Below, one piece after another: positions 3,001-56,132 of a stretch of DNA of 64,000 bases. Below the pieces are notes generated by a model that worked only from the letters and a program-made list of their open reading frames with translations, ran no database searches and was not told the origin of the DNA. Each line of letters opens with the position of its first letter. The first letter of the stretch is position 1. Location of the stretch: contig CM026564.1 in the NCBI GenBank assembly GCA_015143295.1, positions 16,170,416 to 16,234,415 on the forward strand. The letters run 5' to 3'. The position numbers were made by a program, and so were the translations under genes. This DNA comes from Tetracentron sinense (Eukaryota; Streptophyta; Magnoliopsida; Trochodendrales; Trochodendraceae).

Positions 3001-3443
3001 GAGGTTCCCGGGTCGGGTATGGTTGCGTCTTCTGGAATTCGGAAGGGCTGGTGGTGTACGCTTGTGCGGGAACAAAAACTATTGGTACGGTAATCGAAAT
3101 GGAGCTTTTTGCTATAAAAAGAGGGCTTGAGGAAGCTATTCGGTTAGGCTTTCATAGGATTCAGATAGAATCTGATTCGCTATGGGCAGTCAAGTGTGTC
3201 TCCAAGACTTGCTCTCGTCCATGGGATCTATATTGTTTATTGGATGACATTGATCAATTATGGTGTAGGCTTTGCTTAGTGTCTACTTCTCATGTTTATA
3301 GGGAGGCTAACAAGGTAGCAGATGCTCTCTCCAAGCTTTATCCCTCTAGTGGTGAGATTTTATTAGATAGTGACTCGTTCACCCTCCAATTATGTAAGCT
3401 AATTCAGTATGATGCTCGGGGTTGTAGATTCATAAGAGTGTAA
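2..3443 (+). pseudogene. LINE-1 ORF2 (EN-RT-zf-RVT-RNase H), broken
   Basis: ORF2 of a plant LINE makes the nicking endonuclease and reverse transcriptase for target-primed retrotransposition. The end of the endonuclease is read from base 2; the frame changes near base 100; the N-terminal RT region runs from 115 (GTPMFRLQYKLKAVKWALKE). A TAA at 628-630 interrupts the same frame. RT continues from 634 with KAPGPDGFTAHFF, IDLRKAYDYVSW, GLRQGDPMSPYLF and the catalytic FADD at 1357-1368. A G-run near 1790 has lost or gained a base and shifts the frame. Downstream come the zf-RVT region (about 2325-2620, CDRCLLC) and an RVT_3-type RNase H (about 2976-3340) with its acidic residues in TDG, MEL, SDS and ADALSK. 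One stop and two frameshifts make it inactive, but every catalytic residue is present, so decay is moderate. Confidence 0.92.
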
Positions 3444-3487: not shown

Positions 3488-3512
3488 AGCTTTCCTTTTT
3501 CCAAAAAAAAAA

Positions 3513-6407: not shown

Positions 6408-6426
6408 CATTCCCAATATCATGTCA
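6372..6426. repeat. 32-bp tandem duplication at the F deletion junction
   Basis: The segment beginning AATCCATTCCCAATATCA at 6372 restarts at 6404 and runs about 22 bases into the second copy before LTR sequence begins. It sits exactly where pol is joined to mid-LTR sequence, so it looks like a template-switch or end-joining scar. Confidence 0.75.
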
Positions 6427-24099: not shown

Positions 24100-24311
24100 T
24101 GTAGAGCCTCGGACTTTTTCACATTTAATGCATGACACTTTCGTTGCAATTTTTCCTTTAAAGATGTATAATTAATAAATAAGGAAGAAATTGGAAATTC
24201 CGAAATGTCGGAAATGTTCGTTTTCGAAGTACGAACCCAACGCAAGTTGAATCGTCACAATCGCACGAACTAGTCAAAAGTTATGGCCAAAACAGTTTGG
24301 ACCTGCAGACC

Positions 24312-24499
24312 ACCGATTGCTCGGTCCATAGAGCGATCGATCGGTCCAAAACCGATCGCTCGGAGGCTATCGACTAGTCAAGATTTTTGTATGGGGAAAT
24401 CTTCCAGAGAGTGAAATTTTAACCGATCGCTCGGTTATGAAACCGATCGATCGGTAGGCAACCGATCGATCGGTCATTAACACCGATCGCTCGGTACTC
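24312..24499. repeat. ACCGATCGATCGGT array, A 5' LTR
   Basis: Seven copies of ACCGATCGCTCGGT or the perfect palindrome ACCGATCGATCGGT, separated by unrelated spacers. The 3' LTR array (31726-31934) has one extra unit of about 20 bases (CCGATCGCTCGGTTATGAAA repeated). Confidence 0.85.
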
Positions 24500-25964
24500 G
24501 CGTTTTTTGCAAAAATTTCAGTAAGGGTATTATGGTCTTTTGGTCGGTTCACTCTTACCTTAAGAGTTTAACCCGAGCCTTTAGGGCTTCATTTCGACAC
24601 TTAGAGAGATTGAGAGATAAGAAGAGAGGAGAGGGCGATTCCTAAACCTAGGGTTGCCATTTTGGAGAGAAATCAAGGGGTTTGTGAACCCACACTAAAC
24701 TCAAGCCCGTTTTCTTCAAGATCAAGGCTCAAGCATTCGAGGAGCTCGTGATCCAAGCTAGGGCAGCAGCTACACGGTCGTTTTTGGAAGGGGTTTCTTC
24801 CTCATTGTTCAAGGTCGGTACTTCTTGCTACCCTCCTAGTTATAGTTCTTCTTTTCCTTTATTTTCTTTGTGTTCCTTTATATATCCATGTATTATGAGA
24901 TGGGTTGTGAATGGTGAATGATGAATGTGGGCGATTGGATGCCGTGTGTATTGATGTGATGGATGAACGGGGAGGGCATTGTACCCATAATGAACATACA
25001 TATGTGATGTGAGTAAAACCCACCTAAAAAAGCATGTTGTAGGGTTAATAAATAATGAATGCACCATGTTTGATGAAATGCCAAGGTGAATAAAATGAAT
25101 AATAAATTAAGAAAATGCATGTTTAAGGTTTATGGAAATTGCTAGGGTCATGATAGTGTGATTGTTCGCTTTCCCTAAATGATATGAATACTAAATTGCT
25201 CAAATCATTGATGTATGTGTTATGAATTACTCAAATGCCATATGTAATTCCAAATGCAAGTATGCACACGACCTCACGAGCACGCATACATGACAGATTT
25301 ACCGAGGTTTTCGAGAATGGGATTTAGAGGTGGGGCATATCCTACGATATGTTTTACCTCGCTTTTGGTAAGGACAAGACAATCATGCATTTTCATAAGA
25401 AGGGTCTCCCTTCTCTCGCAAGTGCATACATATCATAAGAAGGGTCTCCCTTCCCTCGCAAGTGCATCTCACAAGGACATCTCACAAGTGAATCTCACAA
25501 GTGGAAGGACAAGCATGAGCATTCTAGGAAGAAGGGTCTCCCTTCCCTCACAAGTAGTTTACTCTTCCGAGTAGGCATGACATGACATAGCAAGACAAGC
25601 ATGAGCATTCTAAGAAGAAGGGGCTCCCTTCCCTCTCAAATAGATTACTTTTCAGAACAAGCAAGCATGATACAAGCATGGCACGCATGATACAAGCATG
25701 ATGAGCATGACACGGTAAATAAGTTCCCAATTACGCGAAGGATATTTTAAGTCAAGTCAAGTGCATGGTGTTTTTCAAGGATTTTATCGGCTTTTCATGA
25801 ACTGCAAGAATGATTATGAATTTCCTTATTTCTTTGTATGATATTAACTGTTCTTGATTCATATATGTCTATATTGTTTCCTGGGTATGCATTGCTATCT
25901 CTTGTTATAACTATTGGTTAGTATTTAGTACCCGCTGAGTATTCCATACTCAGCCGTACTTCTT

Positions 25965-26084
25965 ATGTCGGCAGGTTCTGAGGGAGCTGCTGCTCCATTT
26001 GATGTTTGTGCTCCTGGTCCATGGGTGGAGGAGGAGTACGTCGAGGAGTCTTTGGAGGAACCTCCCGTAGAGGGTTATCAGTAG
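25965..26084 (+). CDS. LTR-borne conserved short frame, A 5' LTR copy
   Basis: ATG at 25965 opens 39 codons to TAG 26082-26084. The product is short and acidic; its conserved core is PFDVCAPGPWVEEEY, followed by an E/P-rich tail ending VEGYQ. The ATG lies 10 bases before a possible splice acceptor (GGCAG|GT at 25974), so it would be removed if that site is used. The A 3' LTR copy (from 33411) has lost one base after GAGGG and is frameshifted. It lies in the transcribed leader between the CTGAG hairpin and the LTR end. Function unknown; whether it is translated is unknown. Confidence 0.5.
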   Translation: MSAGSEGAAAPFDVCAPGPWVEEEYVEESLEEPPVEGYQ

Positions 26085-26381
26085 GTGGTGTTAGATTCTG
26101 AGTGGATTAGCTGTGGGTGAGCATGAGTGATTATATCAATGTATTTTGGCGGGCATGTCCGCACTTTCTTTATTTTGATTTCTTTGTATTAAAACTTGGA
26201 CCATCTGTATATACTTAGAGGTTTGTTAGACTTCCGCTGTGTTTTATAGTTATGCTTCCGCTGTTAACCTCTATTGTATATGCTCTGTGGGTGTTTTGCA
26301 GGTGGTTTGTCAAGCAAGTCATGATTTAGTCGTCCACGATTCACTCTAACTCCTAAGGTGGGTTTTGGGTCGCGACAGAAG

Positions 26382-26738: not shown

Positions 26739-27987
26739 ATGAGACGGAACACACGGGGTCGTGGGCCACATACCAGAGCTTCCTCTTCTTCACGGGATGA
26801 GGATGAGCAGTCGGCCCTCTCTCAGGTCTTAGGCTCTATTGCTGAGACACTTGTCATCCTGGCGGCTCGGCAAACTATACCGGCATCAGCGGCACCTACT
26901 CCACCGCCTGTAGCTCCAGTACATCGTACCGCTGGAGTTGAGGCATTCTAGAGAGTGAGGCCTCCATCCTTCCATGGGAGTGTGGACCCTCTTGCTGCGG
27001 AGGCGTGGATCCTCCAGATGGAGAAGGTTTTTACGGTCCTCTCACCCACAGAGGAGGAGAGAGTAGCATGGGCAGCTTTCATGCTAGAGGGCGAAGCCCA
27101 CCATTGGTGGTTTTCCGCGTTGAGGACGCGAGATTTGACCATGCAGGGTCAACCTTGGACTTGGGATGAGTTCAAGGACGTTTTTTACAAGAAGTATTTT
27201 CCGATTGGAGCACGGGAAAGGAAAGAGAGAGAATTCATCAACCTCGAGCAAGGTTTGATGTCGGTGGCACAATACGAGGCCAAGTTCTCGGAGCTATCAC
27301 GCTTCGCGACTCACATGGTTGCCACCGAGGCAATGAAGGCATGAAGGTTTGAGCAAGGGCTCAAAGATGTTATCATGGAGAAGGTTTCGATTTTCAAACA
27401 TGCTACCTACCCTGAGGTAGTAGACAAGGCCTTATTGGTTGAGGCCAATTCAGAGACAGTGTCCAAGAAGAGGGAGTTGGCGAGAGGCCAAGCTAGTAGT
27501 TCAGCACCTTCAGAGAGGTGGGCTCATACCGGCCCTTATCAGTATACATGGCCAACACCACCGATGAAGCCGACTTATGCGCCTCCAGCTCCCCGGCAGT
27601 ATGTGCCGCAGGCACCGCGACCTCAAGCTCTTCTGGCCCCACGGCCTGTTGCACCTTAGACGATGAGGTATGCTCCACCTCCGGCCCCTCCGACCTATAC
27701 ACACGAGGTCTGCACTTCGTACGGCCGAAGGCACCCGGCAGGAGATTGCCGAAGGGCATCGGGTGGATGCTTTCATTGTGGTCGCCAGGGCCATATGATC
27801 GGGGATTGCCCCAGTCGGCATTTACCAGGCCAATCTCAGGGGATTAGGCCACCAGCATGCCCAGCAGGATCATATCAGGCGTCATCTCAGACTACCCGGT
27901 CTACACCTCAGTCTCGTCAGGCAAACCAGGGGCGAGTTTTTGCCTTAACAGAGGGTGATGCACTTGCATCTGACGATGTAGTGCAAG
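26739..27987 (+). pseudogene. gag: gag of A (capsid and zinc knuckle), three stops
   Basis: Gag forms the cytoplasmic particle and packages RNA. From ATG 26739 (MRRNTRGRGPHTRASSSS) one frame runs 416 codons plus one base to the intron donor, interrupted by TAG 26949, TGA 27342 and TAG 27657. It has a retrotrans_gag-type capsid region (PPSFHGSVDPLAAEAWILQM, WAAFMLEGEAHHWW, FYKKYFP, REFINLEQG), a proline-rich linker and a zinc knuckle CFHCGRQGHMIGDC, preceded by a second knuckle-like motif whose second Cys is Tyr here (CTSYGRRH). Without splicing, the frame ends five codons after the knuckle tail DDVVQ. Confidence 0.92.
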
Positions 27988-28135
27988 GTACGCAGTTGTA
28001 GCTTATTTAATTATCCGTAAATTAAACTGTTAAGTATTAATTGATTGTGTACGTACTTGGCATGTTATATATGTATATATACCTACATGTATACACTGTT
28101 GATGCATGGATTAATTCCGGTAGTCAAAATTTCAG
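27988..28135 (+). other. putative intron at gag/protease junction of A (148 bp)
   Basis: Begins CAAG|GTACGCAG and ends AAAATTTCAG|GAACC, is AT-rich and T-rich before the AG. Gag is in frame 0 and protease in frame 1; removing 148 bases joins them as VVQ-GTLLV. Orthologous introns occur in B (146) and C (142). Confidence 0.75.
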
Positions 28136-31100
28136 GAACCCTACTAGTCAATGAGTATTTGGCTCGAGTGTTGATTGATACGGGGTCTACTCATTCATTT
28201 GTCTCGCCGAGTTTTTCAGAAGGCTTTTCTGTAGAGCCAAGTCAGCTTGAACCGGAGTTAGCCGTTTCGACTCCTCTCAGCCAAACAGTATTGGCAGATA
28301 AAGTGTATAGAAATAGTGTGGTCCAAGTTGGAAGCCACGAGTTGGCGGTTGATCTCATCGTCCTTGGATTCCAAGACTTTGATGTTATATTGGGAATGGA
28401 TTGGTTAGCAGCACATCATGGGCATGTAGCTTGCTTTGAGAAGATGATACTCTTCAAGCAGGTAGAAGGAAAACCATATCACTTTCGGGGGTTAAAAAGT
28501 AGAGATATCGCTCGTTTTGCGGCATTGAGCTTAGCGAACCTCGAGGCAAAGGACTCTTCGATTATTCCGGTCGTGAGTAAATTCCTGAATGTATTTCCAG
28601 AGGAGTTGCCAGGATTACCTCCAGACAGGGAGATTGACTTTGTGATTGAGCTTACACCAAGCACAGCTCCCATCTCTCGAGCTCCGTATAGAATGGCCCC
28701 GGTAGAACTCAAGGAGTTGAAGACTTAGTTGGAGGAATTACAAGGCCTTGGTTTCATTCGACCAAGTGTCTCACCGTGGGGTGCCCCGGTGTTGTTTGTT
28801 AAGAAGAAAGATGGTTCGATGCGAATGTGCGTCGATTACCGGCAATTGAACAAGGTCACTATAAAGAATAGGTATCCATTGCCTAGAATTGATGATTTGT
28901 TCGATCAGTTGAAGGGAGCGAGATTTTTCTCAAAGATAGACCTTCGATCGGGTTATCACCAGTTGAAGATTAAGGTGGAAGATGTTCCCAAAACTGCTTT
29001 CAGGACTCGGTATGGACACTACGAGTTCTTGGTAATGCCTTTTGGACTCACGAACGCGCCGGCAGCCTTTATGGATTTGATGAACCGGGTGTTCCGGCCA
29101 TATCTTGATAGGTGCGTGATTGTATTTGTTGATGACATTTTGGTCTATTCCCAGACACGGGAAGATCACACACGCGACAGAAGCAAGTGTGAGTTTTGGT
29201 TGGAAGAGGTGGCATTCCTAGACCACGTTGTTTCTGCAGAAGGTATCTCGGTAGATCCAAAGAAGATCGAAGCAGTTATGAGTTGGGCGAGGCCCAAGAG
29301 TGTTACCGAGGTACGCAGCTTTCTTGGGTTGGCAGGCTACTACAGGAGATTCGTAGAGGGTTTCTCTAGCCTTGCAGCATCGCTCACTTACCTGACAAGG
29401 AAGAATACCAAGTTTGTATGGAGTGATAAGTGCGAGATCAGTTTCACGGAACTGAAGAAGAGGCTTACTACAGCCCCTGTCCTTACTGTGCCATCTGGAC
29501 CTTATGGGTATGAGGTGTATAGTGATGCCTCACACGTTGGACTTGGGTGTGTACTCATGCAGTACAAGAAAGTCATTGCCTATGCATCAAGACAATTGAA
29601 GGAGCATGAGAAGAATTATCCCTCGCACGACTTAGAGCTTGCGGCGGTCGTGTTTGCACTTAAGATTTGGCGTCATTACCTTTATGGGGTGGAGTTCTAT
29701 GTGTTTACCGATCACAAGAGTCTCAAGTATCTCTTTTCCCAAAAGGAGTTGAATCTAAGGCAACGGCGTTGGATGAAATTTTTGAAAGACTATGATTGTA
29801 CCATTCAATACCACCCGGGTAAAGCAAATGTAGTGGCTGATGCTTTGAGTAGAAGACCTCCGGGGTTATTAGCATGCATGTTAGTGCAGGAATGGAAGCT
29901 ACTTGAAGACTTGGCAAATCTAAACATTAGTGTGAATGACTCTGTCCGTAGTCCTTTCTTGGCAAATGTCACAGTTCGGCCATACATTATAGATTTGATC
30001 CAAGAATACCAAGCCACGGATGTTGAATTGTTGGCTTATCGGGACAAGGAAGTTGCTAAGGGTAGTGAGGACTTCTCTCTCACTAGCCAAGGTGCTATCA
30101 CATTCAAGGAAAGGCTGTGTGTCCCAGCCAATGCAGATCTTCGGAGGAAGGTTATGGATGAAGCCCACCGGGCAAAGTACACTGTGCATCCAGGGGGTAC
30201 GAAGATGTACCGGAACCTCAAGAGTCACTTTTGGTGGCGGAATATGAAGAGGGATGTTGCAGAATATGTGGCACGGTGCTTAGTGTGCCAACAGGTGAAA
30301 GCAGAACACATGCGACCCGCCGGTCTATTGCATTCTCTTCCTATTCCCGAGTGGAAATGGGAGAACATATCCATGGATTTCATAGTTGGCTTGCCAATTA
30401 CAAAGGGCTCAGATGCAATTTGGGTTGTAGTAGACTGTCTGACGAAGTCTGCGCACTTCCACCCTACCGAACTACTTTCAACTCTAACCAGTTGGCCGCT
30501 CTATACATCAAGGAAGTGGTGAGGTTGCACGGAGTGCCCGTCAATATTGTGTCGGATCGGGATCCAAGATTCACGTCAAGATTTTGGAAAAGTTTCCAAG
30601 AGGCTATGGGTTCCCGACTTGATTTCAGCACCGCTTTTCATCTACAGACGGATGGACAAACCGAGAGAGTGAACCAAGTCATTGAAGACATGCTTCGGGC
30701 TTGTATGTTGGATTTCAGAGGCAGTTGGGAAGAGCACTTGCCTTTGGTTGAATTCGCCTATAATAACAGCTATCAGACGAGTATCCAAATGGTACCATTT
30801 GAGGCCTTGTATGGGCGAAGTTGTAGGTCTCCTCTCTATTGAGATGAGGTAGGAGAAAGGAAAGTACTTGGTCCGGAGTTGATTGAGCGAACTACAAACA
30901 CAGTTAAGATCATCCGGGATCGATTGAAAGCCGCTCAAGATCGCCAGAAAAGTTATGCGGACACGCGCCGTAGGGACTTGGAATTTCAAGTAGGGGATCA
31001 AGTTTTTGTGAAAGTATCTCCTAGCAAAGGGATCATGAGATTTGGCAAGCGAGGCAAGCTCAGTCCTCGGTATGTTGGGCCTTTTGAGATTATCACGCGA

Positions 31101-31409
31101 GTTGGTGAGGTTGCTTACAGGGTAGCTCTCCCACCAGACATGGCCGCAGTTCACAACGTTTTCCATGTGTCTATGCTTCGGAAGTACATTGCGGATCCTT
31201 CACATGTCATAGACTTGGAACCGTTGGAGATTCGAGAGGACCTCACCCTGATTGAAAAGCCGGTCCAGATTTTGGATCGAAGAGATCAAGTGCTTCGCAA
31301 CAAGACAATCCCTTTGGTTCTTGTGCAATGGCAACACCATGCTCGGGAAGAAGCTACATGGGAGCATGAAGCCGAAGTCAAAGCAAAGTACCCAGAATTA
31401 TTTGAATGA
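28136..31409 (+). pseudogene. pol: pol of A (PR-RT-RH-INT-chromodomain), broken
   Basis: Protease: LIDTGSTHSFVS active site and [36 protein letters not shown] at 29125-29136. RNase [34 protein letters not shown]. Integrase: zinc region [11 protein letters not shown]...CLVCQ, core DFIVGLP, SDRDPRF, QTERVNQ. The tail ends EEATWEHEAEVKAKYPELFE, a chromodomain-like end. Defects seen: TAG 28726-28728 for Gln; an in-frame RT deletion at about 29178 that removes about 17 residues between TRD and SKCEFW; a small deletion in the integrase core near 30400; a frameshift near 30461; and TGA 30840-30842 for Trp. The usual length is about that of B, so A is nearly full length but inactive. Confidence 0.93.
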
Positions 31410-31514: not shown

Positions 31515-33831
31515 TGTAGATCCTCGGACTTTTTCACATTTAATGCATGACACTTTCGCTGCAATTTTTCCTTTAAAGAGGTATAATTAATAAATAAGGA
31601 AGAAATTCAAAATTCTGAAACGTCAGAAATGTTCGTTTTCGAAGTACGAACCCAACGCAAGTTGAATCGTCAAAATCGGACGAACTAGTCAAAAGTTATG
31701 GCCAAAAACAGTTTGGACCTGCAGACCACCGATCGCTCAGTCCATAGAGCGATCGATCGGTCCAAAACCGATCGCTCGGAGGCTATCGACTGGTCAAGAA
31801 TTTTGTATGGGGAAATTTTCCAGAGAGTGAAATTTTAACCGATCGCTCGGTTATGAAACCGATCGCTCGGTTATGAAACTGATCGATCGGTAGGCAACCG
31901 ATCGATCGGTCATTAACATCGATCGCTCGGTACTCGCGTTTTTGCAGAAATTTCAGTAAGGGTATTATGGTCTTTTGGTCGGTTCACTCTTACCTTAAGA
32001 GTTTAACCCGAGCCTTTAGGGCTTCATTTCGACACTTAGAGAGATTGAGAGATAAGAAGAGAGGAGAGGGCGATTCCTAAACCTAGGGTTTCCATTTTGG
32101 AGAGAAATCAAGGGGTTTGTGAACCCACACTCAACTCAAGCCCGTTTTCTTCAAGATCAAGGCTCAAGCATTCGAGGAGCTCGTGATCCAAGCTAGGGCA
32201 GCAGCTACACGGTCGTTTTTGGAAGGGGTTTCTTCCTCATTGTTCAAGGTCGGTACTTCTTGCTACCCTCCTAGTTATAGTTCTTCTTTTCCTTTATTTT
32301 CTTTGTGTTCCTTTATATATCCATGTATTATGAGATGGGTTGTGAATGATGAATGATGAATGTGGGCGATTGGATGCCGTGTGTATTGATGTGATGGATG
32401 AACGGGGAGGGCATTGTACCCATAATGAACATACATATGTGATGTGAGTAAAACCCACCTAGAAAAGCATGTTGTAGGGTTAATAAATAATGAATGCACC
32501 ATGTTTGATGAAATGCCAAGGTGAATAAAATGAATAATAAATTAAAAAAATGCATGTTTAAGGTTTATGGAAATTGCTAGGGTCATGATAGTGTGATTGT
32601 TCGCTTTCCCTAAATGATATGAATACTAAATTGCTCAAATCGTTGATGTATGTGTTATGAATTACTCAAATGTCATATGTAATTCCAAATGTAAGTATGC
32701 ACACGACCTCACGAGCACGCATACATGACAGATTTACCGAGGTTTTCGAGAATGGGATTTAGAGGTGGGGCATATCCTACGATATGTTTTACCTCGCTTT
32801 TGGTAAGGACAAGACAATCATGCATTTTCATAAGAAGGGTCTCCCTTCCCTCGCAAGTGCATACATATCATAAGAAGGGTCTCCCTTCCCTCGCAAGTGC
32901 ATCTCACAAGGACATCTCACAAGTGAATCTCACAAGTGGAAGGACAAGCATGAGCATTCTAGGAAGAAGGGTCTCCCTTCCCTCACAAGTAGTTTACTCT
33001 TCCGAGTAGGCATGACATGACATAGCATGACAAGCATGAGCATTCTACGAAGAAGGGTCTCCCTTCCCTCACAAGTAGATTACTGTTTAGAACAAGCAAG
33101 CATGATACACGCATGATACAAGCATGACACGCATGATACAAGCATGATGAGCATGACACGGTAAATAAGTTCTCAATTACGCGAAGGATATTTTAAGTCA
33201 AGTCAAGTGCATGGTGTTTTTCAAAGATTTTATCGGCTTTTCATGAATAGCAAGCATGATTATGAATTTCCTTATTTCTTTGTATGATATTAACTGTTCC
33301 TGATTCATATATATCTATATTGTTTCCTGGGTATCCATTGCTATCTCTTGCTATAACTGTTGGTTAGTATTTAGTACCCGCTGAGTATTCCATGCTCAGC
33401 CGTACTTCTTATGTCGGCAGGTTCTGAGGGGCTGCTGCTCCATTTGATGTTTGTGCTCCTGGTCCATGGGTGGAGGAGGAGTACATCGAAGAGTCTTTGG
33501 AGGAACCTCCCGTAGAGGGTTATCAGTAGGTGGTGTTAGATTCTGAGTGGATTAGCTGTGGATGAGCATGAGTGATTATATCCATGTATTTTGGCGGGCA
33601 TGTCCGCACTTTCTTTGTTTTGATTTCTTTGTATTAAAACTTGGACCATCTGTATATACTTAGAGGTTTGTTAGACTTCCGCTGTGTTTTATAGTTATGC
33701 TTCCCCTGTTATCCTCTATTGTATATGCTCTGTGGGTGTTTTGCAGGTGGTTTGTCAAGCAAGTCATGTAAGTCATGATTTAGTCGTCCACGATTCACTC
33801 TAACTCCTAGGGTGGGTTTTGGGTCGCGACA
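31515..33831 (+). repeat. 3' LTR of A
   Basis: 2317 bp, collinear with the 5' LTR. Differences include one extra palindrome unit, many single-base changes, a one-base loss in the short frame, and a TGACAAG/ACACGCATGATAC length change near 33020-33130. Donor-like site at 32249, acceptor at 33420. Confidence 0.93.
31726..31934. repeat. ACCGATCGATCGGT array, A 3' LTR
   Basis: Eight copies, one more than the 5' LTR because of a duplicated CCGATCGCTCGGTTATGAAA unit. Confidence 0.85.
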
Positions 33832-41543: not shown

Positions 41544-42059
41544 GTCCCTGCTGAGGAGTCTCATGTAGAGGGCTATTATTCGGTGGTAGATTCTAAGTGA
41601 GTGTGGGTGAGCATGAGAGATTTATACCCATGTATTTTGGCGGGCATGTCCACACCTTCTTTATTCTGATTTCTCTTTTGTACAAACTTGGATCATATAT
41701 ATAGAGAGGTTTTGGTTAGACTTCTGCTGTGCCATGTTAGTTTATGCTTCCGCTATTTGTCCTCTATCGTATATGCTCATAGTGTTTTGCAGGATGGTTT
41801 GTTAAGCATGTCATGTAGGTGATAAGTCGTCCAAGATTCACTCTAACTCTTAGGGTGGGTTTTGAGTCGCGACAAAAGTAGTATCAGAGCTTAGGCTTTA
41901 GGCCTTATAGGGTCACTTAGAATCGGGTACCACAACTTGAAAAGAGCATATGTAAGGAAGCAAGTTAGGAAGGAAGTAATTCGGAAGCGAGTCATGTTCC
42001 AAGTGTAAGATTAAACTTTAGTCTTAGTTTAAAATGGTTGCTTCAACCAAATACGGGGC

Positions 42060-43287
42060 ACACGGGGTCGCGGACCATAGATGAGAGCTTCTTCCTCTTC
42101 TCGAGATGAGGATGAGCAGTTGGACCTCTCTTAGGTCTTAGGCTCTATTGCTGAGACACTAGCCATACTGGCGGCTAGGTAGGCTATTCCAACATCAGCA
42201 GCACCTACTCCACCGCCTGCAGCACCAGTACATCGTACAGCTGGGGTTGAGACATTTTGGAGAATGGGGCCTCTAGCATTCCATGGGAGTGTGGACCCTC
42301 TAGCTGCAGTGGCTTGGATCCTCCAGTTGGAGAAGATCTTCGCGGTTCTCTCGCCCACAAAAGAAGAAAGAGTGGCATGGGCTATTTTGATGCTCGAGGA
42401 AGAGGCCCACCATTGGTGGTTGTTCGCCTTAAGGACTCGAGACTTGACCAGGCAAGGTTAGCTATGGACTTGGGACGAGTTCATATCCACCTTCTACAAG
42501 AAGTACTTCCTGGTGGGAGCTCAGAAAAAGAAAGAGATGGAATTCATCAACCTCGAGCAAGGTTTTATGTCGGTGGCTCATATAGCCAAGTTCTCGGAGC
42601 TGTCACGCTTCGCGCCCCACATGATCGCTACGGAGGCGATGAAGACGAGAAGATTCGAGCAAGGGCTCAGAGATGTGATCATGAAGAGAGTCTCAGCTTT
42701 CAGGCACGCTAGCTACCCGGAGGTAGTGGACAAGGCCTTATTGATCGAGACCAACTCTGAGGCCATGCCTAAGAAGAGGGATTTGGCGAGAGGCCAATCC
42801 AGCAGTTCAGCACCTCCCAAGAGGCGGGCCCGGACTGGCCCTTATCAGTATACTTGACCAACACCACCTTAGTCTGCGTGGCCAGTACCACCGTAGAGGC
42901 CATCTTATGCACCTCCAGCTCAACGCCAGTATGCGCCATAGGTACCATGACCTCAGGCTCTTCCGGCCCCACGGCCCATTGCACCTCAGGCGGCGAGGTA
43001 TGCTCCACCTCTGGCCCCTTCGACCTACACATATGAGGTCTGCACATCTTGCAGCCGAAGGCACCCGGTAGGAGATTGCAGTAAGGCAGCGGGTGGATGT
43101 TTCCATTGTAGTCGTCAGGTCCACCTGATCAGAGATTGCCCTAGTCGGCATTTGCCAGGTCAGTCACAGGAGATTAGGCCCCCAGTCCGCCCAGCTGGAT
43201 CATACCAGGCATCCTCCCAGCCTGCACAATCTACCTCCGCCATGCCAGGTGAACTAGGGGCGAGTATTTGCCTTGACAGAGGGAGAT
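42060..43287 (+). pseudogene. gag: gag of C, first part, degenerate
   Basis: The start (first ATG and several residues) and about 180 bases of leader are deleted: the leader joins directly to the TRGRG-like region at about 42060. Capsid blocks are recognisable (LAFHGSVDPLAAVAWILQLE, EEEAHHWWLFALRTRDL, FYKKYFLVGAQ, EFINLEQGFMSVAH). There are stops near 42130, 42179, 42459 and 42855, and further stops up to the altered zinc knuckle (43080-43150). It is cut after LTEGD by element B; the last codons lie at 53141-53168. Confidence 0.88.
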
Positions 43288-43586
43288 TGTAGCACCCTGG
43301 ACTTTTCGGTATGTATTAAAGCATAAAGTCATGTTCTTGAATGGAAAGTTGGATTTCCATGGTTAAATCTATTGGAAACCCGAGTTTCTAAACCCCGCTT
43401 GCATACACAATTAACTTAGGGGCAAAATGGTAAATAAATAAAGTGGAACTTGGAAATTCTAAGACGCCAGGAATGTTCCTTTTCGAACAACGAATCAAAC
43501 GCAAGTTGAATCGTCAAAATCCGACGAACGAGTCAAAAGTTATGACCGAAACAAGAAAGAGGAAAAAAATGAAACTTTGCTGCAAG

Positions 43587-43780
43587 TTACGACCGATCGT
43601 ACAGACCCTACGAGCGATCGTAGGTGAGTTATGATCGATCGTAGAGGTTACGATCGATCGTAGAATCTCAGGGAATTGACAAAAGTCTCGGGTCGATATA
43701 CGATCGATCGTGGAAAACTTACGATGGATCGTAGCATAACTTACGATCGATCGTAGACAAGTTACGATCGATCGTAGATC
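43587..43780. repeat. TACGATCGATCGTA array, B 5' LTR
   Basis: About nine copies of TTACGATCGATCGTAG and variants. The 3' LTR array (51141-51320) lacks one unit. Confidence 0.85.
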
Positions 43781-44559
43781 GCGAATCCAGAATTTTTAAT
43801 CGGGTCCTTAGGGTTTTCTTCCCTACCTATTTAAGTGAACCAAGCCTTTAAGGCTTCCATTCACAATACTTAGAAGGTTTTGAGAGATAGAGAGAGAAGA
43901 GAAGAGGATCCTAACCTAGGGTTGTTCTTGAAGGGGAAATCAAAGGGTTTCAATACCCTAGATCACCACAAGCCTAGATCCCTCAAGCTCACGACTCAAG
44001 CACTCGAGGGACACTTTCTCCAAGCTCGGTAGCGCCACATGCGCGTTTTGCAAGGGTCTTCTTCCCTTATTCAGGTCGGTACCTTTTGCTACCCTCCTAG
44101 TTATGGTTTCCACTCTTTCTTCCTTGTTCTTTAGTTTGCTTAAACTATAACTATGCTATATGTTGGAATGGATGAATGGAGATGATGTTTGGCAACGGAT
44201 GCCGTGTGAAATGTGATGTGAATGAATGAAATGGGAAGGACATTGTATTAATAATAAACACACATGTGTGCTATGAGCTTAACCCATTTAGAAAAATAAG
44301 ATTTAGGTATTGCCATAATGTACACACCAAATGTTTGATGAAATGCCAATGTGAAGAAGATGATTTACAAGTTAAGAAAAGCGTGATTTAAAGCATATGG
44401 AAATTTATAGGGTTATGATAGTGTAATTACTCGATTTCTAGAATTGCATATTTGTAGATTTAATTGTCTTGATATTAAATGTTGCCTTGAATGATTTTGA
44501 ACCTATCATGTTGTCTTTAAATTCATGAGTTAATTGTACACGATCCCACGAGCATGACA

Positions 44560-44985
44560 AGGCATGACATGACAAGCATGAGCATTCTAAGAAGAATGGT
44601 CTCCCTTTCCTCACAAGTAGTTTACTTTTCCAAGCAAGCATGACAAGACATGACATGACAACCATAAGCATTCTAGGAAGAAAGGTCTCCCTTCCCTCAC
44701 AAGTAGTTTACTTTTCCAAGCAAGCATGACAAGGCATGACATGACAAGCATGAGCATTCTAGGAAGAAGGGTCTCCCTTCCCTCACAAGTAGTTTACTTT
44801 TCCAAGCAAGCATGACAAGACATGACATGACAAGCATGAGCATTCTAGGAAGAAGGGTCTCCCTTCACTCACAAGTAGTTTACTTTCCAAGCATGACAAG
44901 ACATGACATGACAAGCATAAGCATTCTAGGAAGAAGGGTCTCCCTTCCCTCACAAGTAGTTTACTTTCCAAGCAAGCATGACATG
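44560..44985 (+). repeat. tandem units of about 85 bp with hairpin, B 5' LTR
   Basis: Five units: AAGCATGACAAG..., GAGCATTCTAGG, GAAGAAGGGTCTCCCTTCCC, TCACAAGTAGTTTACTTTCC. GAAGGG-TCT-CCCTTC can fold into a 6-bp hairpin. Equivalent units occur at 52085-52515, and fewer in A, C, D and F. Confidence 0.85.
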
Positions 44986-45267
44986 GCATGACACGCATGA
45001 TATGACAAGATAAGACAAACATGACAAGTTTCAAGCACGGAAATTGTATCTCCAATCAAGTCAAGTGCACGGTGTTTTCAAGGGTGTTATCGGCTTTTCA
45101 TGAAATGCAAGCATGATTAGAAATTGCCTTATTTCCTTGATTATGATATTGATGGTTCCTGCTTGTATATGTAAAATGCTTCCTGCTTCCTATACTGCTA
45201 TGGTTTGCTATGACTATTGGTTAGTATTTAGTACCCACTGAGTATTCCATGCTCAGCCGTACTTCTT

Positions 45268-45387
45268 ATGTCGGCAGGTTCTGAGGGAGCTGCTGCTCCT
45301 TTTGATGTTTGTGCTCCTGGTCCATGGGTGGAGGAGGAGTACGTCGAGGAACCTTTGGAGGAACCTCCTGTAGAGGGTTATCAGTAG
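45268..45387 (+). CDS. LTR-borne conserved short frame, B copy (intact)
   Basis: ATG 45268 opens 39 codons to TAG 45385-45387. The core PFDVCAPGPWVEEEY is identical in protein to A and D. Differences from A are Pro CCA/CCT, GAG/GAA, Pro CCC/CCT and one Ser-to-Pro. The 3' LTR of B has lost it through a deletion of about 90 bases, near 52795. Confidence 0.5.
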   Translation: MSAGSEGAAAPFDVCAPGPWVEEEYVEEPLEEPPVEGYQ

Positions 45388-45683
45388 GTGGTGTTAGATT
45401 CTAAGTTGATTAGCTGTGGGTGAGCATGAGTGATTATATCCATGTATTTTGGCGGGCATGTCCGCACTTTCTTTGTTTTGTTTTCTTTTGTATTAAAATT
45501 GGACCATGCATATGTACTTAGAGGTTTGTTAGACTTCCGCTGTGTTTTATAGTTATGCTTCCGCTGTTATCCTCTATTGTATATGTTCTGTGGGCTTTAC
45601 AGGTTGGTTCGTCAAGCAAGTCATGGTAAAGTCGTCCAAGATTCACTCTAACTCCTAGGGTGGGTTTTGGGTCGCGATAGAAG

Positions 45684-45695
45684 TGGTATCAGAGC
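45684..45695 (+). other. primer-binding site of B
   Basis: TGGTATCAGAGC, initiator tRNA-Met type, 4 bases after the LTR. Confidence 0.93.
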
Positions 45696-46039
45696 TTAGG
45701 CTTTAGGTCTCTAGGGTCACTTAGAACCTTATACCACGGCTTGACAAGAGCATATGTTAGGAAACAAGTTAGGATGGAAGTAAGTCGGGAGCGAGTCTGG
45801 TTCCAAGTGTAAGACTAAACTTTAGTCTTAGTCTAAAATGATTGCTTTAACCAAGTACGGGTCCTAGGTACCCTAGAACACTAAAGTATATGTATAACGT
45901 GATGAATACTCTGATGACTTGATGTGATGTATACTAGTACTATAAAATTTATACAAGTTGAATTATTGTTAAATGGCACCGAGATAAATTGTGGTTTCAA
46001 GAAGACTCATGTAGTGTTATTATTCTCAGGACTTTAGTC
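45696..46039 (+). other. B untranslated leader
   Basis: About 340 bases, nearly identical to the leader of A, no gene. It ends in TATTCTCAG|GACTTTAGTC just before the gag ATG. Confidence 0.6.
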
Positions 46040-47286
46040 ATGAGACGGAACACACGGGGTCGTGGGCCACATACCAGAGCTTCCTCTTCTTCACGGGATG
46101 AGGATGAGCAGCCGGACCTCTCTCAGGTCTTAGGCTCTATTGCTAAGACACTCGCCGTCCTGGCGGCTCGGCAAACTATACCGGCATCAGCGGCACCTAC
46201 TCCACCGCCTGAAGCTCCAGTACATCGTATAGCTGGAGTTGAGGCATTCCGGAGATTGAGGCCTCCATCCTTCCACGGCAGTGTGGACCCTCTTGCTGCG
46301 GACGCTTGGATCCTCCAGGTTGAGAAGATATTTGCGGTGCTCTCTCCTACAGAGGAAGAGAAAGTAGCATGGGCAGTTTTCATGCTAGAAGGCGAAGCCC
46401 ACCATTGGTGGTTGTCCGCATTGAGGACACGAGATTTGACCATGCAGGGTCAACCTTGGACTTGGGATGAGTTCAAGGACGCTTTTTACAAGAAGTATTT
46501 CCCGGTTGGAGCACGGGAAAAGAAAGAGAGAGAATTCATCAACCTTGAGCAAGGTTCGATGTCTGTGGCCGCTTATGAGGCCAAGTTCTCGGAACTATCA
46601 TGCTTCGCGACACATGATTGCCACTGAGGCAATGAAGGCGAGGAGGTTTGAGCAAGGGCTCAAGGATGTCATCATGGAGAAAGTGTCGGTCTTCAGGCAC
46701 GCCACTTACGCCGAAATAGTGGATAAAGCCCTGTTGGTTGAGACCAATTTAGAGTCCGTGTCCAAGAAGAGAGAATTGGCGAGAGGCCAATCTAGTGGTT
46801 CGGTACCTTTAGAGAGGCGGGCCCGGACTGGTCCTTATCAGTATACATGGCCAGCACCACAGATGAGGCCGACTTAGGCGCCTCTAGCACCCCGGCAATA
46901 CATGCCACAGGCACCTCGACCTCAGGCTCTTCCGGCCCTACGGCCAGTTGCCCCTCAGGCAGCGAGGTATACACCACCTTCGGTCCCTCCGGCCAACACA
47001 TATGAGGTCTGCACTTCATGCGGCAAAAGGCATCCGACAGGAGATTGCCGAAGAGCATCTGGTGGATGTTATCATTGCGGTCGCCAGGGCCACATGATCA
47101 GGGATTGCCCTAGCCGGCATTCACCAGGCCAGTCTCAGGGTAGCAGGCCCCCAGCACGCCCAGCAAGTTCATACCAGGCGTCATCTCAGACTACCCGGTC
47201 TACACCTCAGTCTCGCCAGGCAAACCAGGGGCGAGTTTTTGCCTTGACAGAGGGTGATGCACTTGCATCTGATGATGTGGTGCAAG
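46040..47286 (+). pseudogene. gag: gag of B, one frameshift and one stop
   Basis: Starts MRRNTRGRGPHTRASSSS at 46040; ATG 45989 lies in the leader and is not shared with A. Capsid blocks PPSFHGSVDPLAADAWILQV, FMLEGEAHHWWLSALRTRDL and FYKKYFPVGAREKKEREF are intact. A two-base loss near 46610 (in FATHMIATEAMKA) shifts the frame, and TAG 46875-46877 interrupts it again. Two knuckles follow: CTSCGKRHPTGDC and CYHCGRQGHMIRDC. Exon 1 ends at DDVVQ plus one base, at the intron donor. Without splicing the frame continues 37 codons into the intron. Confidence 0.92.
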
Positions 47287-47432
47287 GTACGCAGTTAGAG
47301 TTAATTTCTTTATTCGTGATTATTATGTTATGCCCTATTCTCGGTGTACGTACTTGGCATGTTCTATATGTATATATACCTACATGTATACGCTGTTGAT
47401 GCATGGATTAACTCCGCTAGTTAAAATTTCAG
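47287..47432 (+). other. putative intron at gag/protease junction of B (146 bp)
   Basis: CAAG|GTACGCAG to AAAATTTCAG|GAACC. Length 146 = 2 mod 3, whereas A is 148 = 1 mod 3. The pol frame is shifted accordingly in each, so only removal joins both correctly. Confidence 0.78.
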
Positions 47433-50400
47433 GAACCCTACTAGTCAATGAGTATTTGGCTCGAGTATTGATTGATACCGGGTCTACTCATTCATTTGTC
47501 TCGCCGAGTTTTTCAGAAGGCTTTTCTGTGGAGCCTAGTCAGCTAAAGCGGAGTTAGCCATTTCGACTCCTCTCGGCAAAACAGTATTGGCAGATAAAGT
47601 GTATAGAAATAGTGTGGCCCAAGTTGGAAGCCACGAGTTGGCGGTTGATCTCATCGTCCTGTGATTCCAAGACTTTGATGTTATATTAGGAATGGATTGG
47701 TTAGCAGCACATCATGGGCATGTAGCTTGCTTTGAGAAGATGGTACTCTTCAAGCCGGTAGAAGGAAAACCATTTCACTTTCGAGGGTTGAGAAGTAGAG
47801 ACATTGGCCGCTTTGCAGCGTTGAGCTTAGCTAACCCCGAGGCAAAGGACTCATCAACAATTCCAGTTGTGAGTGAATTCCTAGATGTGTTTCCAGAGTT
47901 GCCAGGATTACCTCAAAACAGGGAGATTGATTTTGTGATCGAGCTTGCACCAGGCACAGCTCCTATATTCAGGGCTCCGTATAGAATGGCCCCGATTGAA
48001 CTTAAGGAGCTGAAGACTCAGTTGGAGGAATTACAAGGCCTTGGTTTCATTCGACCAAGTGTCTCACCGTGGGATGCCCCGGTGTTGTTTGTTAAGAAGA
48101 AAGATGGCTCGATGCGAATGTGCGTCGATTACCGTCAATTGAACAAAGTCACTATAAAGAATAGGTATCCATTGCCTAGGATTGACGACTTGTTCGATCA
48201 ATTGAAGGGAGCGAGATTTTTCTCGAAGATAGATCTTCGATCGGGTTATCACCAGTTGAAGATTAAGGTGGAAGATGTTCCCAAAACTGCTTTCAGAACT
48301 CGATATGGGCACTATGAGTTCTTGGTGATGCCTTTTGGTCTCACGAACGTGCCGGCAGCCTTTATGGATTTGATGAACCGGGTGTTCCGACCATACCTAG
48401 ATCGGTGCGTGATTGTATTTGTTGATGACATTTTGGTCTATTCCCAGACACGGGAAGATCACACACGCGATCTACGCCTTGCTTTGGAAATGCTAAGAGA
48501 GCACAAGCTATATGCCAAACTTAGCAAGTGTGAGTTTTGGTTGGAAGAGGTGGCATTTTTAGGCCACGTTGTTTCCGCGGAAGGCATATCGGTAGATCCA
48601 AAGAAGATAGAAGCTGTTATGAGTTGGGCGAGACCCAAGAGTGTTACTGAAATACGCAGCTTTCTTGGGCTGGCAGGCTACTACAGGAGATTCGTAGAGG
48701 GATTCTCTAACCTTGCAGCGCCACTCACTTACCTGACAAGGAAGGACGCCAAGTTTGTATGGAGTGATAAGTGCGAGATCAGTTTCACGGAACTGAAGAA
48801 GAGGCTTACTACAGCCCCTGTCCTTACTGTGCCATCTGGACCTTATGGGTATGAGATGTATAGTGATGCCTCACACGTTGGACTTGGGTGTGTACTCATG
48901 CAGCACAAGAAAGTCATTGCCTATGCATCAAGGCAATTGAAGGAGCATGAGAAGAATTATCCCACGCACGACTTGGAGCTTGCGGCATTCGTGTTTGCAC
49001 TTAAGATTTGGCGTCATTACCTTTATGGGGTGGAGTTCTATGTGTTTACCGATCACAAGAGTCTCAAGTATCTCTTTTCCCAAAAGGAGCTGAATCTAAG
49101 GCAACGGCGTTGGATGGAAATTTTGAAAGACTATGATTGTACCATTCAATACCACCCGGGTAAAGCAAATGTAGTGGCTGATGCTTTGAGTAGAAGACCT
49201 CCGGGGTTATTAGCATGCATGTTAGTGCAGGAATGGAAGCTACTTGAAGACTTGGCAAATCTGGACATTAGTGTGAATGACTCTTTCCGTAGTCCTATCT
49301 TAGCAAATGTCACGGTTCAGCCATACATTATAGATTTGATCCAAGAATACCAAGCCACAGATGCTGAATTGTTGGCTTATCGGGATAAGGAAGTTACTAA
49401 GGGTAGTGAGGACTTCTCTCTCACTAGCCAAGGTGCTATCACATTCAAGGGAAGGCTGTGTGTCCCAGCCAATGCGGATCTTCGGAGGGAGATTATGGAT
49501 GAAGCCCACTGGGCAAAGTACACTGTACATCCGGGGGGTACAAAGATGTACCGGAACCTCAAGAGTCACTTTTGGTGGCGGAATATGAAGAGGGATGTTG
49601 CAGAATATGTGGCACGGTGCATAGTTTGCCAACAGGTGAAAGCAGAACATAGGCGACCAACCGGGCTATTGCATTCTCTTCCTATTCCCGAGTGGAAATG
49701 GGAGAACATATCCATGGATTTCATAGTTGGCTTGCCAAGAACGGCAAAGGGCTCAGATGCAATTTGGGTTGTAGTAGACCGTCTGACAAAGTCTGCGCAC
49801 TTCCTACCCTACCGAACTACTTTCAACTCTAGCCAGTTGGCCGCTCTATACATCAAGGAAGTGGTGAGGTTGCACAGAGTGCCCGTCAGTATTGTGTCGG
49901 ATCAGGATCCAAGATTCACATCACGATTCTGGGAAAGCTTTCAGGAAGCTATGGGTTCCCGACTTAATTTCAGCACTGCTTTTCATCCCCAGACGGATGG
50001 TCAAACTGAAAGGGTGAACCAAGTTATAGAAGACATGCTTCGAGCTTGTATGCTGGATTTTAAAGGCAGTTGGGAAGAGCACTTGCCTTTGGTAGAGTTC
50101 GCATATAATAACAGCTATCAGGCGAGCATCCAAATGGCACCATTCGAGGCCTTGTATGAGCGAAGTTGTCGGTCTCCTCTCTATTGGGATGAGGTAGGAG
50201 AAAGGAAAGTACTTGGGCCGGAGTTGATTGAGCAAACGGCAAGTGTAGTTAAGATCATCCGGGATCGATTGAAAGCCGCTCAAGATCGCCAGAAAAGTTA
50301 TGCGGACACGCGCCGTAGGGACTTGGAATTTCAAGTAGGGGATCAAGTCTTTGTGAAAGTATCTCCTAGCAAAGGGATTATGAGATTTGGCAGGAGAGGC

Positions 50401-50754
50401 AAGCTTAGTCCTCGGTATGTTGGGCCATTTGAGATTATCACGAGAGTTGGAGAAATTGCTTACCAGGTAGATCTTCCACCTCAGATGGCCGCAGTTCACA
50501 ACGTTTTCCACGTGTCTATGCTTCGGAAGTACATTGCGGACCCTTCGCATGTCATAGACTTGGAACCGTTGGAAATCCGGGAGGATCTCACTTTGGTTGA
50601 GAGGCCAGTTCAGATTTTGGATCGAAAGGATCAAGTGCTTCGTAACAAGACTATTCCATTGGTTCTCGTGCAATGGCTACATCATGCTAGAGAAGAAGCC
50701 ACGTGGGAGCGCGAAGCCGAAGTCAAAGCAAAGCATCCGGAATTGTTCGAATGA
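47433..50754 (+). pseudogene. pol: pol of B: protease damaged, RT-RH-INT-chromodomain open (1020 codons)
   Basis: Protease starts GTLLVNEYLARVLIDTGSTH. A one-base loss near 47547 and a TGA near 47661 (after LIVL) break it. From 47692 to TGA 50752-50754 the frame is open: RT about residues 115-290 with FVDD (48418-48429); RNase H about 385-500 ([38 protein letters not shown]); integrase zinc region about 605-650 ([16 protein letters not shown]) and core about 674-775 with D, D and E in [15 protein letters not shown] and QTERVNQ; chromodomain-like end from about 966. All catalytic residues are present. The usual chromovirus order and length support Tekay/Del. It may still provide active enzymes if translated. 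Confidence 0.94.
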
Positions 50755-50826
50755 AATTTTGTATGTGGCTTGTAGTTTTGATTGGTTTGTAATGTATGTA
50801 CCGTCCAATTTCGGGGACGAAATTCT

Positions 50827-50842
50827 TATAAGCGGGGGAGGA
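50827..50842 (+). other. polypurine tract of B
   Basis: TTATAAGCGGGGGAGGA directly before TGTAGC; one purine position is C. The pre-PPT motif TTTCGGGGACGAAATTCT precedes it. Confidence 0.8.
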
Positions 50843-51140
50843 TGTAGCACCCTGGACTTTTCGGCATGTATTAAAGCGTAAAGTCATGTTCTTGAATGGA
50901 AAGTTGGATTGCCATGGTTAAATCTATTGGAAACCCAAGTTTCTAAACCCCGCTTGCGTATCAATTAACCTTAGGGGCAAAATGGTAAATAAATAAAGTG
51001 GAACTTGGAAATTCTAAGACGCCAAGAATGTTCCTTTTCGAACAACGAATCAAACGCAAGTTTAATCGTCAAAATCCGACGAACGAGTCAAAAGTTATGA
51101 TCGAAACAAGAAAGAGGAAAAAAATGAAACTTTGCTGCAA

Positions 51141-51320
51141 GTTACGACCGATCGTACAGACCCTACGAGCGATCGTAGGTGAGTTACGATCGATCGTAGA
51201 ATCTCAGGGAATTAACAAAAGTCTCGGGTCGATATACGAATGATCGTGGAAAACTTACGATGGATCGTAGCATAACTTACGATCGATCGTAGACAGGTTA
51301 CGATCGATCGTAGATCGCGA
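51141..51320. repeat. TACGATCGATCGTA array, B 3' LTR
   Basis: About eight copies, one fewer than in the 5' LTR. Confidence 0.85.
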
Positions 51321-52084
51321 ATCCAGAATTTTTAATCGGATCCTTAGGGTTTTCTTCCCTACCTATTTAAGTGAACCGAGCCTTTAGGGCTTCCATTCAC
51401 AATACTTAGAAGGTTTTGAGAGATAGAGAGAGAAGAGAAGAGGATCCTAACCTAGGGTTGTTCTTGAAGGGGAAATCAAAGGGTTTCAATACCCTAGATC
51501 ACCACAAGCCTAGATCCCTCAAGCTCACGACTCAAGCACTCGAGGGACACTTTCTCCAAGCTCGGTAGCGCCACATGCGCGTTTTGCAAGGGTCTTCTTC
51601 CCTTATTCAGGTCGGTACCTTTTGCTACCCTCCTAGTTATGGTTTCCACTCTTTCTTCCTTGTTCTTTAGTTTGCTTAAACTATAACTATGCTATATGTT
51701 GGAATGGATGAATGGAGATGATGTTTGGCAACGGATGCCGTGTGAAATGTGATGTGAATGAATGAAATGGGAATGGCATTGTATTAATAATAAACACACA
51801 TGTGTGCTATGAGCTTAACCCATTTAGAAAAATAAGATTTAGGTATTGCCATAATGTACACACCAAATGTTTGATGAAATGCCAATGTGAAGAAGATGAT
51901 TTACAAGTTAAGAAAAGCGTGATTTAAAGCATATGGAAATTTATAGGGTTATGATAGTGTAATTACTCGCTTTCTAGAATTGCATATTTGTAGATTTAAT
52001 TGTCTTGATATTAAATGTTGCCTTGAATGATTTTGAACCTATCATGTTGTCTTTAAATTCATGAGTTAATTGTACACGATCCCA

Positions 52085-52515
52085 CGAGCATGACAAGGCA
52101 TGACATGACAAGCATGAGCATTCTAAGAAGAAGGGTCTCCCTTCCCTCACAAGTAGTTTACTTTTCCAAGCAAGCATGACAAGACATGACATGACAAACA
52201 TAAGCATTCTAGGAAGAAGGGTCTCCCTTCCCTCACAAGTAGTTTACTTTTCCAAGCAAGCATGACAAGGCATGACATGACAAGCATGAGCATTCTAGGA
52301 AGAAGGGTTTCCCTTCCCTCACAAGTAGTTTACTTTTCCAAGCAAGCTTGACAAGACATGACATGACAAGCATGAGCATTCTAGGAAGAAGGGTCTCCCT
52401 TCACTCACAAGTAGTTTACTTTCCAAGCATGACAAGACATGGCATGACAAGCATAAGCATTTTAGGAAGAAGGGTCTCCCTTCCCTCACAAGTAGTTTAC
52501 TTTCCAAGCAAGCAT
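52085..52515 (+). repeat. tandem units of about 85 bp with hairpin, B 3' LTR
   Basis: Five units, collinear with those of the 5' LTR. Confidence 0.85.
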
Positions 52516-53140
52516 GACATGGCATGACACGCATGATATGACAAGATAAGACAAACATGACAAGTTTCAAGCACGGAAATTGTATCTCCAATCAAGTCAA
52601 GTGCACGGTGTTTTCAAGGGTGTTATCGGCTTTTCATGAAATGCAAGCATGAGTATAAATTGCCTTATTTCCTTGATTATGATATTGATGGTTCCTGCTT
52701 GTATATGTAAAATGCTTCCTGCTTCCTATATAGCTATGGTTTGCTATGACTATTGGTTAGTATTTAGTACCCACTGAGTATTCCATGCTCAGGAGTACGT
52801 CGAGGAACCTTTGGAGGAACCTCCCGTAGAGGGTTATCAGTAGGTGGTGTTAGATTCTGAGTTGATTAGCTGTGGGTGAGCATGAGTGATTATATCCATG
52901 TATTTTGGCGGGCATGTCCGCACTTTCTTTGTTTTGTTTTCTTTTGTATTAAACTTGGACCATGTATATATACTTAGAGGTTTGTTAGACTTCCGCTGTG
53001 TTTTATAGTTATGCTTCCGCTGTTATCCTCTATTGTATATGTTCTGTGGGCTTTACAGGTTGGTTCGTCAAGCAAGTCATGGTTAAGTCGTCAAAGATTC
53101 ACTCTAACTCCTAGGGTGGGTTTTGGGTCGCGACAGAGAT

Positions 53141-53565
53141 GCACTTGGATCGAATGATGTAGTGCAAGGTACGCGTTTAGAGTTTATTCATTTATTCACG
53201 ATCTTCTTATTATGCCTTATTCTTTGTGTACGTATATGGCATGTGATATATCTACATATCTATACATATGATGTTGATGCATGGATTGACTTAGTTAGTT
53301 ATAATTTTAGGAACTTTATTAGTGAATGAATGTTTGGCTCGTGTGTTGATTGACACCGGGTCTACTCATTCATTTGTCTCGCCGAGTTTTTCCCAAGGCG
53401 TTTCCACAGCCTAGTCAACTGAAACCGTAGCTATTCATTTCAACTCCTTTCGGCAAAACAGTCGTAGCAGATAGCATTTTCAGAAGCAATACAGTTCAAG
53501 TTGGAAGCCGCGAGTTGGTAGCAAATCTTATCGTCCTTGGATTCCAGGACTTCGATGTCATCTTG
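53141..53565 (+). pseudogene. pol: C: gag end, intron, protease start
   Basis: After the GAGAT duplication, gag resumes as ALGSNDVVQ, then a GT-AG intron (53169-53310), then protease GTLLVNECLARVLIDTGSTH with TAG at 53412-53414, a frame change, and [13 protein letters not shown], where element D inserts. Confidence 0.88.
53169..53310 (+). other. putative intron at gag/protease junction of C (142 bp)
   Basis: CAAG|GTACGCG to ATAATTTTAG|GAAC, 142 = 1 mod 3. The exon frames on the two sides (2 and 0) are joined only by removal. Confidence 0.75.
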
Positions 53566-53858
53566 TGTAGCGCCCCAAAACCCACCCTAGGAGTTAGAGT
53601 GAACTTTGGACAACTAATCATGACTTGCTTGACGACTAACCTGCAAAACCCACAGAGCATATACAAGAGAGGGCAAAACAGCGGAAACATACTCAAACAT
53701 GGTATAGCGGAAGTCTACCAAACCTCTATGTATATACATAATCAATCCAAGTTTATACGAAAAGAATCCAAAAGAAAGTGCGGACATGCCCACCAAAATA
53801 CATAAATCTGACTCTCATCTCACCCACAGCTAATCCACTCAGAATCTAACACCACCTA

Positions 53859-56117: not shown

Positions 56118-56132
56118 TCCTCCCCCCCTTAT
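56118..56132 (-). other. polypurine tract of D
   Basis: On the minus strand AAG, eight G, AGGA directly before the 3' LTR. The pre-PPT motif TTTCGAGGACGAAATTCC lies beside it. Confidence 0.85.

Follow-up and report, generated by a model that had tools for sequence, protein, structure and literature searches.

The window analysed here is a 64,000-nucleotide (nt) stretch of contig CM026564.1 of Tetracentron sinense (assembly GCA_015143295.1, positions 16,170,416 to 16,234,415), which carries three copies, here called A, B and C, of a family of long terminal repeat (LTR) retrotransposons in which gag and protease are separated by a short AT-rich insert. We conclude that this insert is very probably a spliceosomal GT-AG intron which is facultatively spliced, such that unspliced RNA would give Gag and act as the main genome while spliced RNA would give Gag-Pol. 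The DNA itself displays the boundaries of the segment, their conservation, the free change of its length and frame class, and the recurrent occurrence of copies from which exactly this segment is missing. By their domain content, the three elements are plant chromoviruses: Pfam finds Retrotrans_gag and a weak zinc knuckle upstream of the insert and, downstream of it, the RVP_2 protease, reverse transcriptase (RT), RNase H, integrase, SH3_Tf2-1 and a chromodomain at the end of pol, the last with E-values of 2.7e-5 (A) and 4.4e-4 (B) and scores that are both just below the Pfam cut-off. The resulting order, GAG-PROT-RT-RH-INT, is that of the chromoviruses of the Ty3/gypsy group.

The inserts lie on the plus strand at 27988..28135 in copy A (148 nt), 47287..47432 in copy B (146 nt) and 53169..53310 in copy C (142 nt), each after the first base of a glycine codon at the Gag/protease boundary. 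They were predicted from DNA in a first-pass annotation of the window, whose coordinates and lengths, together with the CAAG/GTACGC donors and ...AG/GAAC acceptors, proved exact in all three copies. In copy A the donor GTACGC starts at 27988 and the acceptor TTTCAG ends at 28135, and 28099..28115 holds two branch-site-like motifs, TTGAT (28099-28103) and TTAAT (28111-28115). The A of the latter is 21 nt before the last intron base, which is also the distance for TTAAC in B and TTGAC in C. A start in GT, an end in AG and a branch-site motif before the acceptor are the features of a U2-type intron, and the donor agrees with the plant consensus except at +4 and +6. The description of the insert as AT-rich also holds, its GC content being 0.30 in A, 0.35 in B and 0.30 in C, compared with 0.46 for the 52-nt flanks; its T content is 0.39, 0.40 and 0.45, and that of the flanks 0.31-0.32. 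It is therefore U-richer and GC-poorer than its exons, as plant introns are, with a U excess of 8-13 points; the usual excess is given as about 15 points in PMC3735527.

The first-pass annotation had further noted that the offset between the gag and pol frames equals the insert length modulo 3. This is correct (gag/protease frames, expressed as (position-1) mod 3, are 2/0 in A, 2/1 in B and 1/2 in C); taken alone, the match is near-tautological because undamaged exons force the offset to follow the length of the insert. What is informative is a length class that shifts from lineage to lineage with purifying selection maintained on both flanks. The ratio of nonsynonymous to synonymous substitution (dN/dS) is 0.15-0.25 for the gag, protease and RT pieces (Nei-Gojobori; A vs B and A vs C), and the divergence (K) of the insert, 0.186 for A-B and 0.376 for A-C, falls between the dN and dS of its flanks. 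The 3′ half of the insert is over much of its length 94-96% alike between A and B, which we read as shared descent combined with the branch region. Coding in this half was considered and rejected: the second clade of the family is unalignable there, and the translations of A and B, compared by eye, give three peptide changes among five base changes.

Across the genome (1.16 Gb in 1,479 contigs) the donor pattern GTGCAAGGTACGC has 5,916 exact matches, compared with 3 for the reversed control. We sampled 68 donor-matching places, all on a single contig (C1). A protease motif was found by pattern in 48 of these, and AG stands at the acceptor predicted by protein homology in 42 of the 48; at other offsets from -11 to +11 it occurs in at most two, and at -12 and +12 in 27 and 45, from fixed sequence. 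At 16 of the other 20 places tblastn recovered a protease, and the inserts there are about 120-148 nt long; the insert measures 120-168 nt in the 64 of 68 copies in which a protease was found. Thirty copies count as open on both sides, the criteria being presence of the AG together with no fewer than 60 open codons in gag and 80 in protease. Among them the insert falls into length classes 1, 0 and 2 in 14, 11 and 5 cases, respectively, and a gag-frame stop lies inside the insert in 29 of the 30. In a 44-row tree built on the protease exon, the length class changes at least 15 times; near-identical groups carry inserts of 144, 145 and 134 nt, and a looser group one of 148 nt. Since the search pattern itself contained the donor, we also examined an unselected 200 kb of one contig, where six out of six gag-protease pairs have an insert of 133-148 nt, with GT in five and AG in all six.

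A YTRAY motif with its A placed 20-24 nt before the end is present in 38 of 42 copies (36 of 40 distinct introns), as compared with a mean of 3.2 and a maximum of 9 in shuffles, a comparison that does not amount to a probability given that the copies are related. Among 17 representatives the intron interiors barely align between clades; what they have in common is GTACGC, itself in the search pattern, and nearly always the branch motif and CAG. Collecting further family members genome-wide had been put forward at the outset as a check on the intron, and when run on a sample it came out in favour of one with respect to length classes, acceptor AG, branch motif and intron-less copies.

The intron-less copies were found with a 26-base exon-exon junction query that allowed up to three mismatches, which matched at 102 places (reversed control, 0). 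By hand count over the 100 places listed, 38 are perfect matches, on 19 contigs, and ten of the perfect junctions listed have the exon type of the second deep clade, GTGCAAG/GCGC; exact loss is present in both deep clades. Many of the three-mismatch places resemble acceptor sites of intron-bearing copies and not junctions. We chose 22 intron-less copies to cover the exon types: 12 of the 38 perfect matches, four of the ten with one mismatch, two of the three with two mismatches and four with three. All 22 run from VVQ (VMQ in one) directly into protease, and some are stopped elsewhere. The nearest copy by identity is intron-bearing for 13 of them (up to 99.4%) and another intron-less copy for five, with ties in four; L111 is 99.4% identical to L076, which has a 134-nt intron, and L115 is 98.7% identical to L013 (144 nt). 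Over 66 tree rows the intron state changes at least 18 times, the mean for shuffled labels being 18.7, and a single clade of the 22 is rejected (approximately unbiased test, p-AU 1.85e-82). The choice of diverse exon types somewhat favours such scatter, and the close pairs are independent of that choice. Scattered intron-less copies are what is expected if spliced RNA was reverse-transcribed, and, because those sampled seldom group together, the pattern suggests that they seldom found lineages. In both of the two intron-less copies examined, the LTR end and leader are at the expected distance and distal LTR sequence lies about 3.6 kb upstream; this arrangement, which is that of LTR-type copies, is consistent with an origin by the LTR route and does not prove it.

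Outside the family, Gag and protease are joined. Three protein searches returned at least 241 related proteins, 96 of them with a protease motif by pattern and 56 of these also with a Gag anchor. Among the matches listed, the Gag-protease spacing is exactly 32 residues in 50 of the 56, which equals the sum of the exon parts here; the remaining six have 33 residues (three), 34 (one), 30 (one) or a spurious anchor (one). Some of the entries are gene models and possibly spliced by annotators, and contiguous Gag-protease frames are also readable from DNA in L002, L003, L004 and L007. These four are plant-like Gag-Pol retrotransposon sequences in contigs filed as bacterial genomes, and are probably contamination. 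No relatives of the family were found in the viral contigs scanned. A diverged relative, P0241, which is 56% identical over 75% of the query, aligns as far as ASDDVVQGT, then diverges and ends ten residues on. With caution, it may represent the same interruption in a diverged member; a stop or the end of a contig would fit equally. The codon at which its Gag drops out of the alignment is the same as here, which suggests an arrangement older than this genome.

We therefore propose a model of the following kind. Intron-retaining RNA would be translated to Gag alone, since the gag frame runs into a stop within the intron in 29 of 30 open copies, with a short tail that would differ among copies, and this RNA would also be the main packaged genome. 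Removal of the intron would produce an RNA for one Gag-Pol polyprotein, and partial splicing, which the donor mismatches at +4 and +6 would suit, would set the ratio of Gag to Gag-Pol. The first-pass annotation had already named unspliced RNA as the genome, and the presence of the insert in six of six gag-protease pairs of the unselected stretch bears this out for the usual genome. What we would add to that account is an occasional copying of spliced RNA: reverse transcription of the spliced form may now and then give rise to intron-less copies, which would seldom form groups of their own.

Several observations weigh against this model. The gag frame of copy C has no stop inside the insert; all three inserts had been said to contain stops, which in the gag frame holds for A and B, with stops 11 and 110 nt into the insert, and not for C, where this frame is open throughout. 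Similarly, the open copy L010 (C1:5.77 Mb) has a stop-free 168-nt insert in the gag frame, such that gag, insert and protease make up one frame. The 68-copy sample was selected by donor motif and comes from one contig, four of its 68 copies had no protease found, and AG stands at the estimated acceptor in only 10 of the 16 copies in which the protease was found by tblastn. Finally, AGG is common to donor and acceptor, so that a DNA deletion could yield the identical junction. Deletion between these AGG repeats, in place of splicing, is nevertheless an unlikely source of the intron-less copies, given that exact loss occurs at 38 places and in both deep clades and that no other large deletion is present where a protease was found, in 64 of the 68 sampled copies, whose inserts are 120-168 nt. 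Descent of the intron-less copies from an old lineage that predates intron gain would accord with the relatives outside the family, which have no insert and hence imply that it was gained at some time, and with the position of L113, L117 and the pair L109/L118, which stand far from the intron-bearing copies in the sample. We hold it to be highly improbable, however: the tree test rejects one ancestral clade of the 22, the state changes are like those of shuffled labels, and the pairs L111/L076 and L115/L013 are each made up of near-identical intron-less and intron-bearing copies.

Two further possibilities would dispense with an intron altogether. Were Gag joined to Pol by programmed ribosomal frameshifting or stop read-through, the segment would be a spacer; in B the gag and pol frames overlap by about 120 nt, as a -1 shift would need, and in C the gag frame is open through the segment, as a +1 shift would need. 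Yet A, B and C would need different events, the 30 open copies span all three length classes with at least 15 class changes, and the extra residues that would arise at the boundary are absent in 50 of 56 anchored relatives (among the matches listed). We reject such recoding, which we consider extremely unlikely, since different lineages would need different shifts. The first-pass annotation had stated that no fixed frameshift can serve both A and B; none can serve all copies, as the three length classes occur among open copies and also between near-identical ones. Pol might otherwise be made separately, by reinitiation at the ATG of TTGATGCATGG, which overlaps the gag stop in B (TGATG). In all three window copies this ATG is in the pol frame, 34 nt ahead of the acceptor, and an in-frame ATG of some kind is present in 13 of the 30 copies that are open on both sides. 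The other 17, however, have no ATG between the last stop and the catalytic DTG; moreover, in C a TAG comes directly after the ATG, the motif is absent in the second clade, and its TTGAT is also branch-site-like. Reinitiation at TGATG was rejected as a general mechanism because the in-frame ATG is missing in those 17 copies, and we rate it as very unlikely.

How much Gag and little Pol can be obtained from one retroelement transcript is a standing question. Most plant LTR groups have one open reading frame (ORF), Bianca and Ogre having two that are separated, and in Ogre the spacer is an intron removed from a subset of transcripts (PMC6317226). Plant LTR elements are described as generally intron-less, with Ogre and EVADE named as exceptions (PMC12786077). 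BARE1 is described in PMC3735527, where Bagy2, Ogre and CRR are mentioned too, a study of sunflower reports spliced isoforms, with no Tekay member in the expressed set (PMC7730604), and the passages found in PMC2864245 and PMC11963269 contained nothing relevant. Our literature search, in which subscription journals were thinly covered, found no chromovirus in which an intron lies where gag meets protease. The family resembles Ogre, a Ty3/gypsy element of the Tat lineage, in that an intron between ORFs is spliced from part of the transcripts to give the whole polyprotein (PMC6317226). It differs in that its intron, about 120-168 nt long, lies between Gag and protease and not between protease and RT, and in being a chromovirus with a chromodomain, which Ogre is not. 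With BARE1 and EVADE, of the Ty1/copia group, it would share the use of splicing to balance Gag against Pol (PMC3735527, PMC12786077). In those elements spliced RNA encodes Gag only, whereas here that role would belong to the unspliced RNA; as read from DNA, the Gag frame continues across the junction into protease in all 22 intron-less copies.

Among chromoviruses, single-ORF plant elements of the Tekay/Del type match the family in domain order and in the peptide at the Gag/protease junction. They differ from it in lacking the insert there, as judged by spacing, in 50 of the 56 anchored relatives (among the matches listed). By its motifs the family may belong to the Tekay/Del clade. CRR is a chromovirus too, a centromeric one. 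It is a Gypsy element with spliced transcripts (PMC3735527), and differs from the present family, in which intron removal would join Gag to Pol. On balance we lean towards a fuller account in which an abundant chromovirus family gained a Gag/protease intron, is partially spliced with a polarity that is the reverse of BARE/EVADE, and has left dozens of independent retro-spliced copies, the arrangement predating this genome (P0241). If true, Ty3/gypsy elements would have solved the problem by intron retention a second time, at a different boundary and in a different lineage from Ogre. With the intron-less copies, genome sequence alone is enough to count splicing and the copying of spliced RNA, and these copies would then form a natural archive of how frequently spliced RNA is copied and how rare the resulting lineages are. 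Annotation pipelines that assume one ORF would call such copies frameshifted and dead.

The elements that carry the three introns are all on the plus strand and differ in state of preservation. The LTRs of A and B are about 2.3-2.4 kb long, and both elements have the primer-binding-site-like sequence TGGTATCAGAGC, which we assume to be of the initiator-Met type. Copy A comprises a 5′ LTR (alignable part 24100..26377), TGGTATCAGAGC at 26382, gag at 26952..27987, pol at 28136..31406 and a 3′ LTR at 31515..33831 that is 95.9% identical to the 5′ LTR. Its gag consists of three open pieces in one frame with single stops between them and contains capsid, zinc knuckle and a C-terminus ...DDVVQ; its pol, in more than one frame, contains protease, RT-RNase H, integrase pieces and chromodomain. 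Copy B is a whole element (43288..53135) with LTRs at 43288-45679 and 50843-53135 that are about 97% identical and a five-base target duplication, GAGAT, and it sits in the gag of copy C. Its pol (47433..50751) has a frame change in the protease near 47554 and a long open frame from 47665, and its LTRs contain 86-base tandem units (44465-44999 and 52001-52535). Copy C is not a fragment: it is an older copy split by two nested insertions, B in gag and element H in protease. Its gag upstream of B occupies 42011..43287, its protease starts at 53311 and reaches element H at 53565, and its pol resumes after H at 61823 and extends to at least 63981. Element H (53566-61822, minus strand, target duplication TCTTG) has LTRs that are about 98% alike and include 24-base tandem repeats, the 3′ part of its LTR being about 83% like that of the A/B/C family. 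It has an ORF with a zinc knuckle (56496-57152), and nothing similar to the pol of copy A was found within the element, so that H may be a gag-only relative that is not autonomous. Another copy of the family's pol lies at 3512-6409 on the minus strand; it is 88% like A, its match starting at A position 28365 and hence not including the intron region. Remains of LINE-like and other mobile elements are present at 634-3440 (RVT_1, zf-RVT and RVT_3), 10734-11891 on the minus strand (DUF4283) and 14265-15281 (RVT_1).
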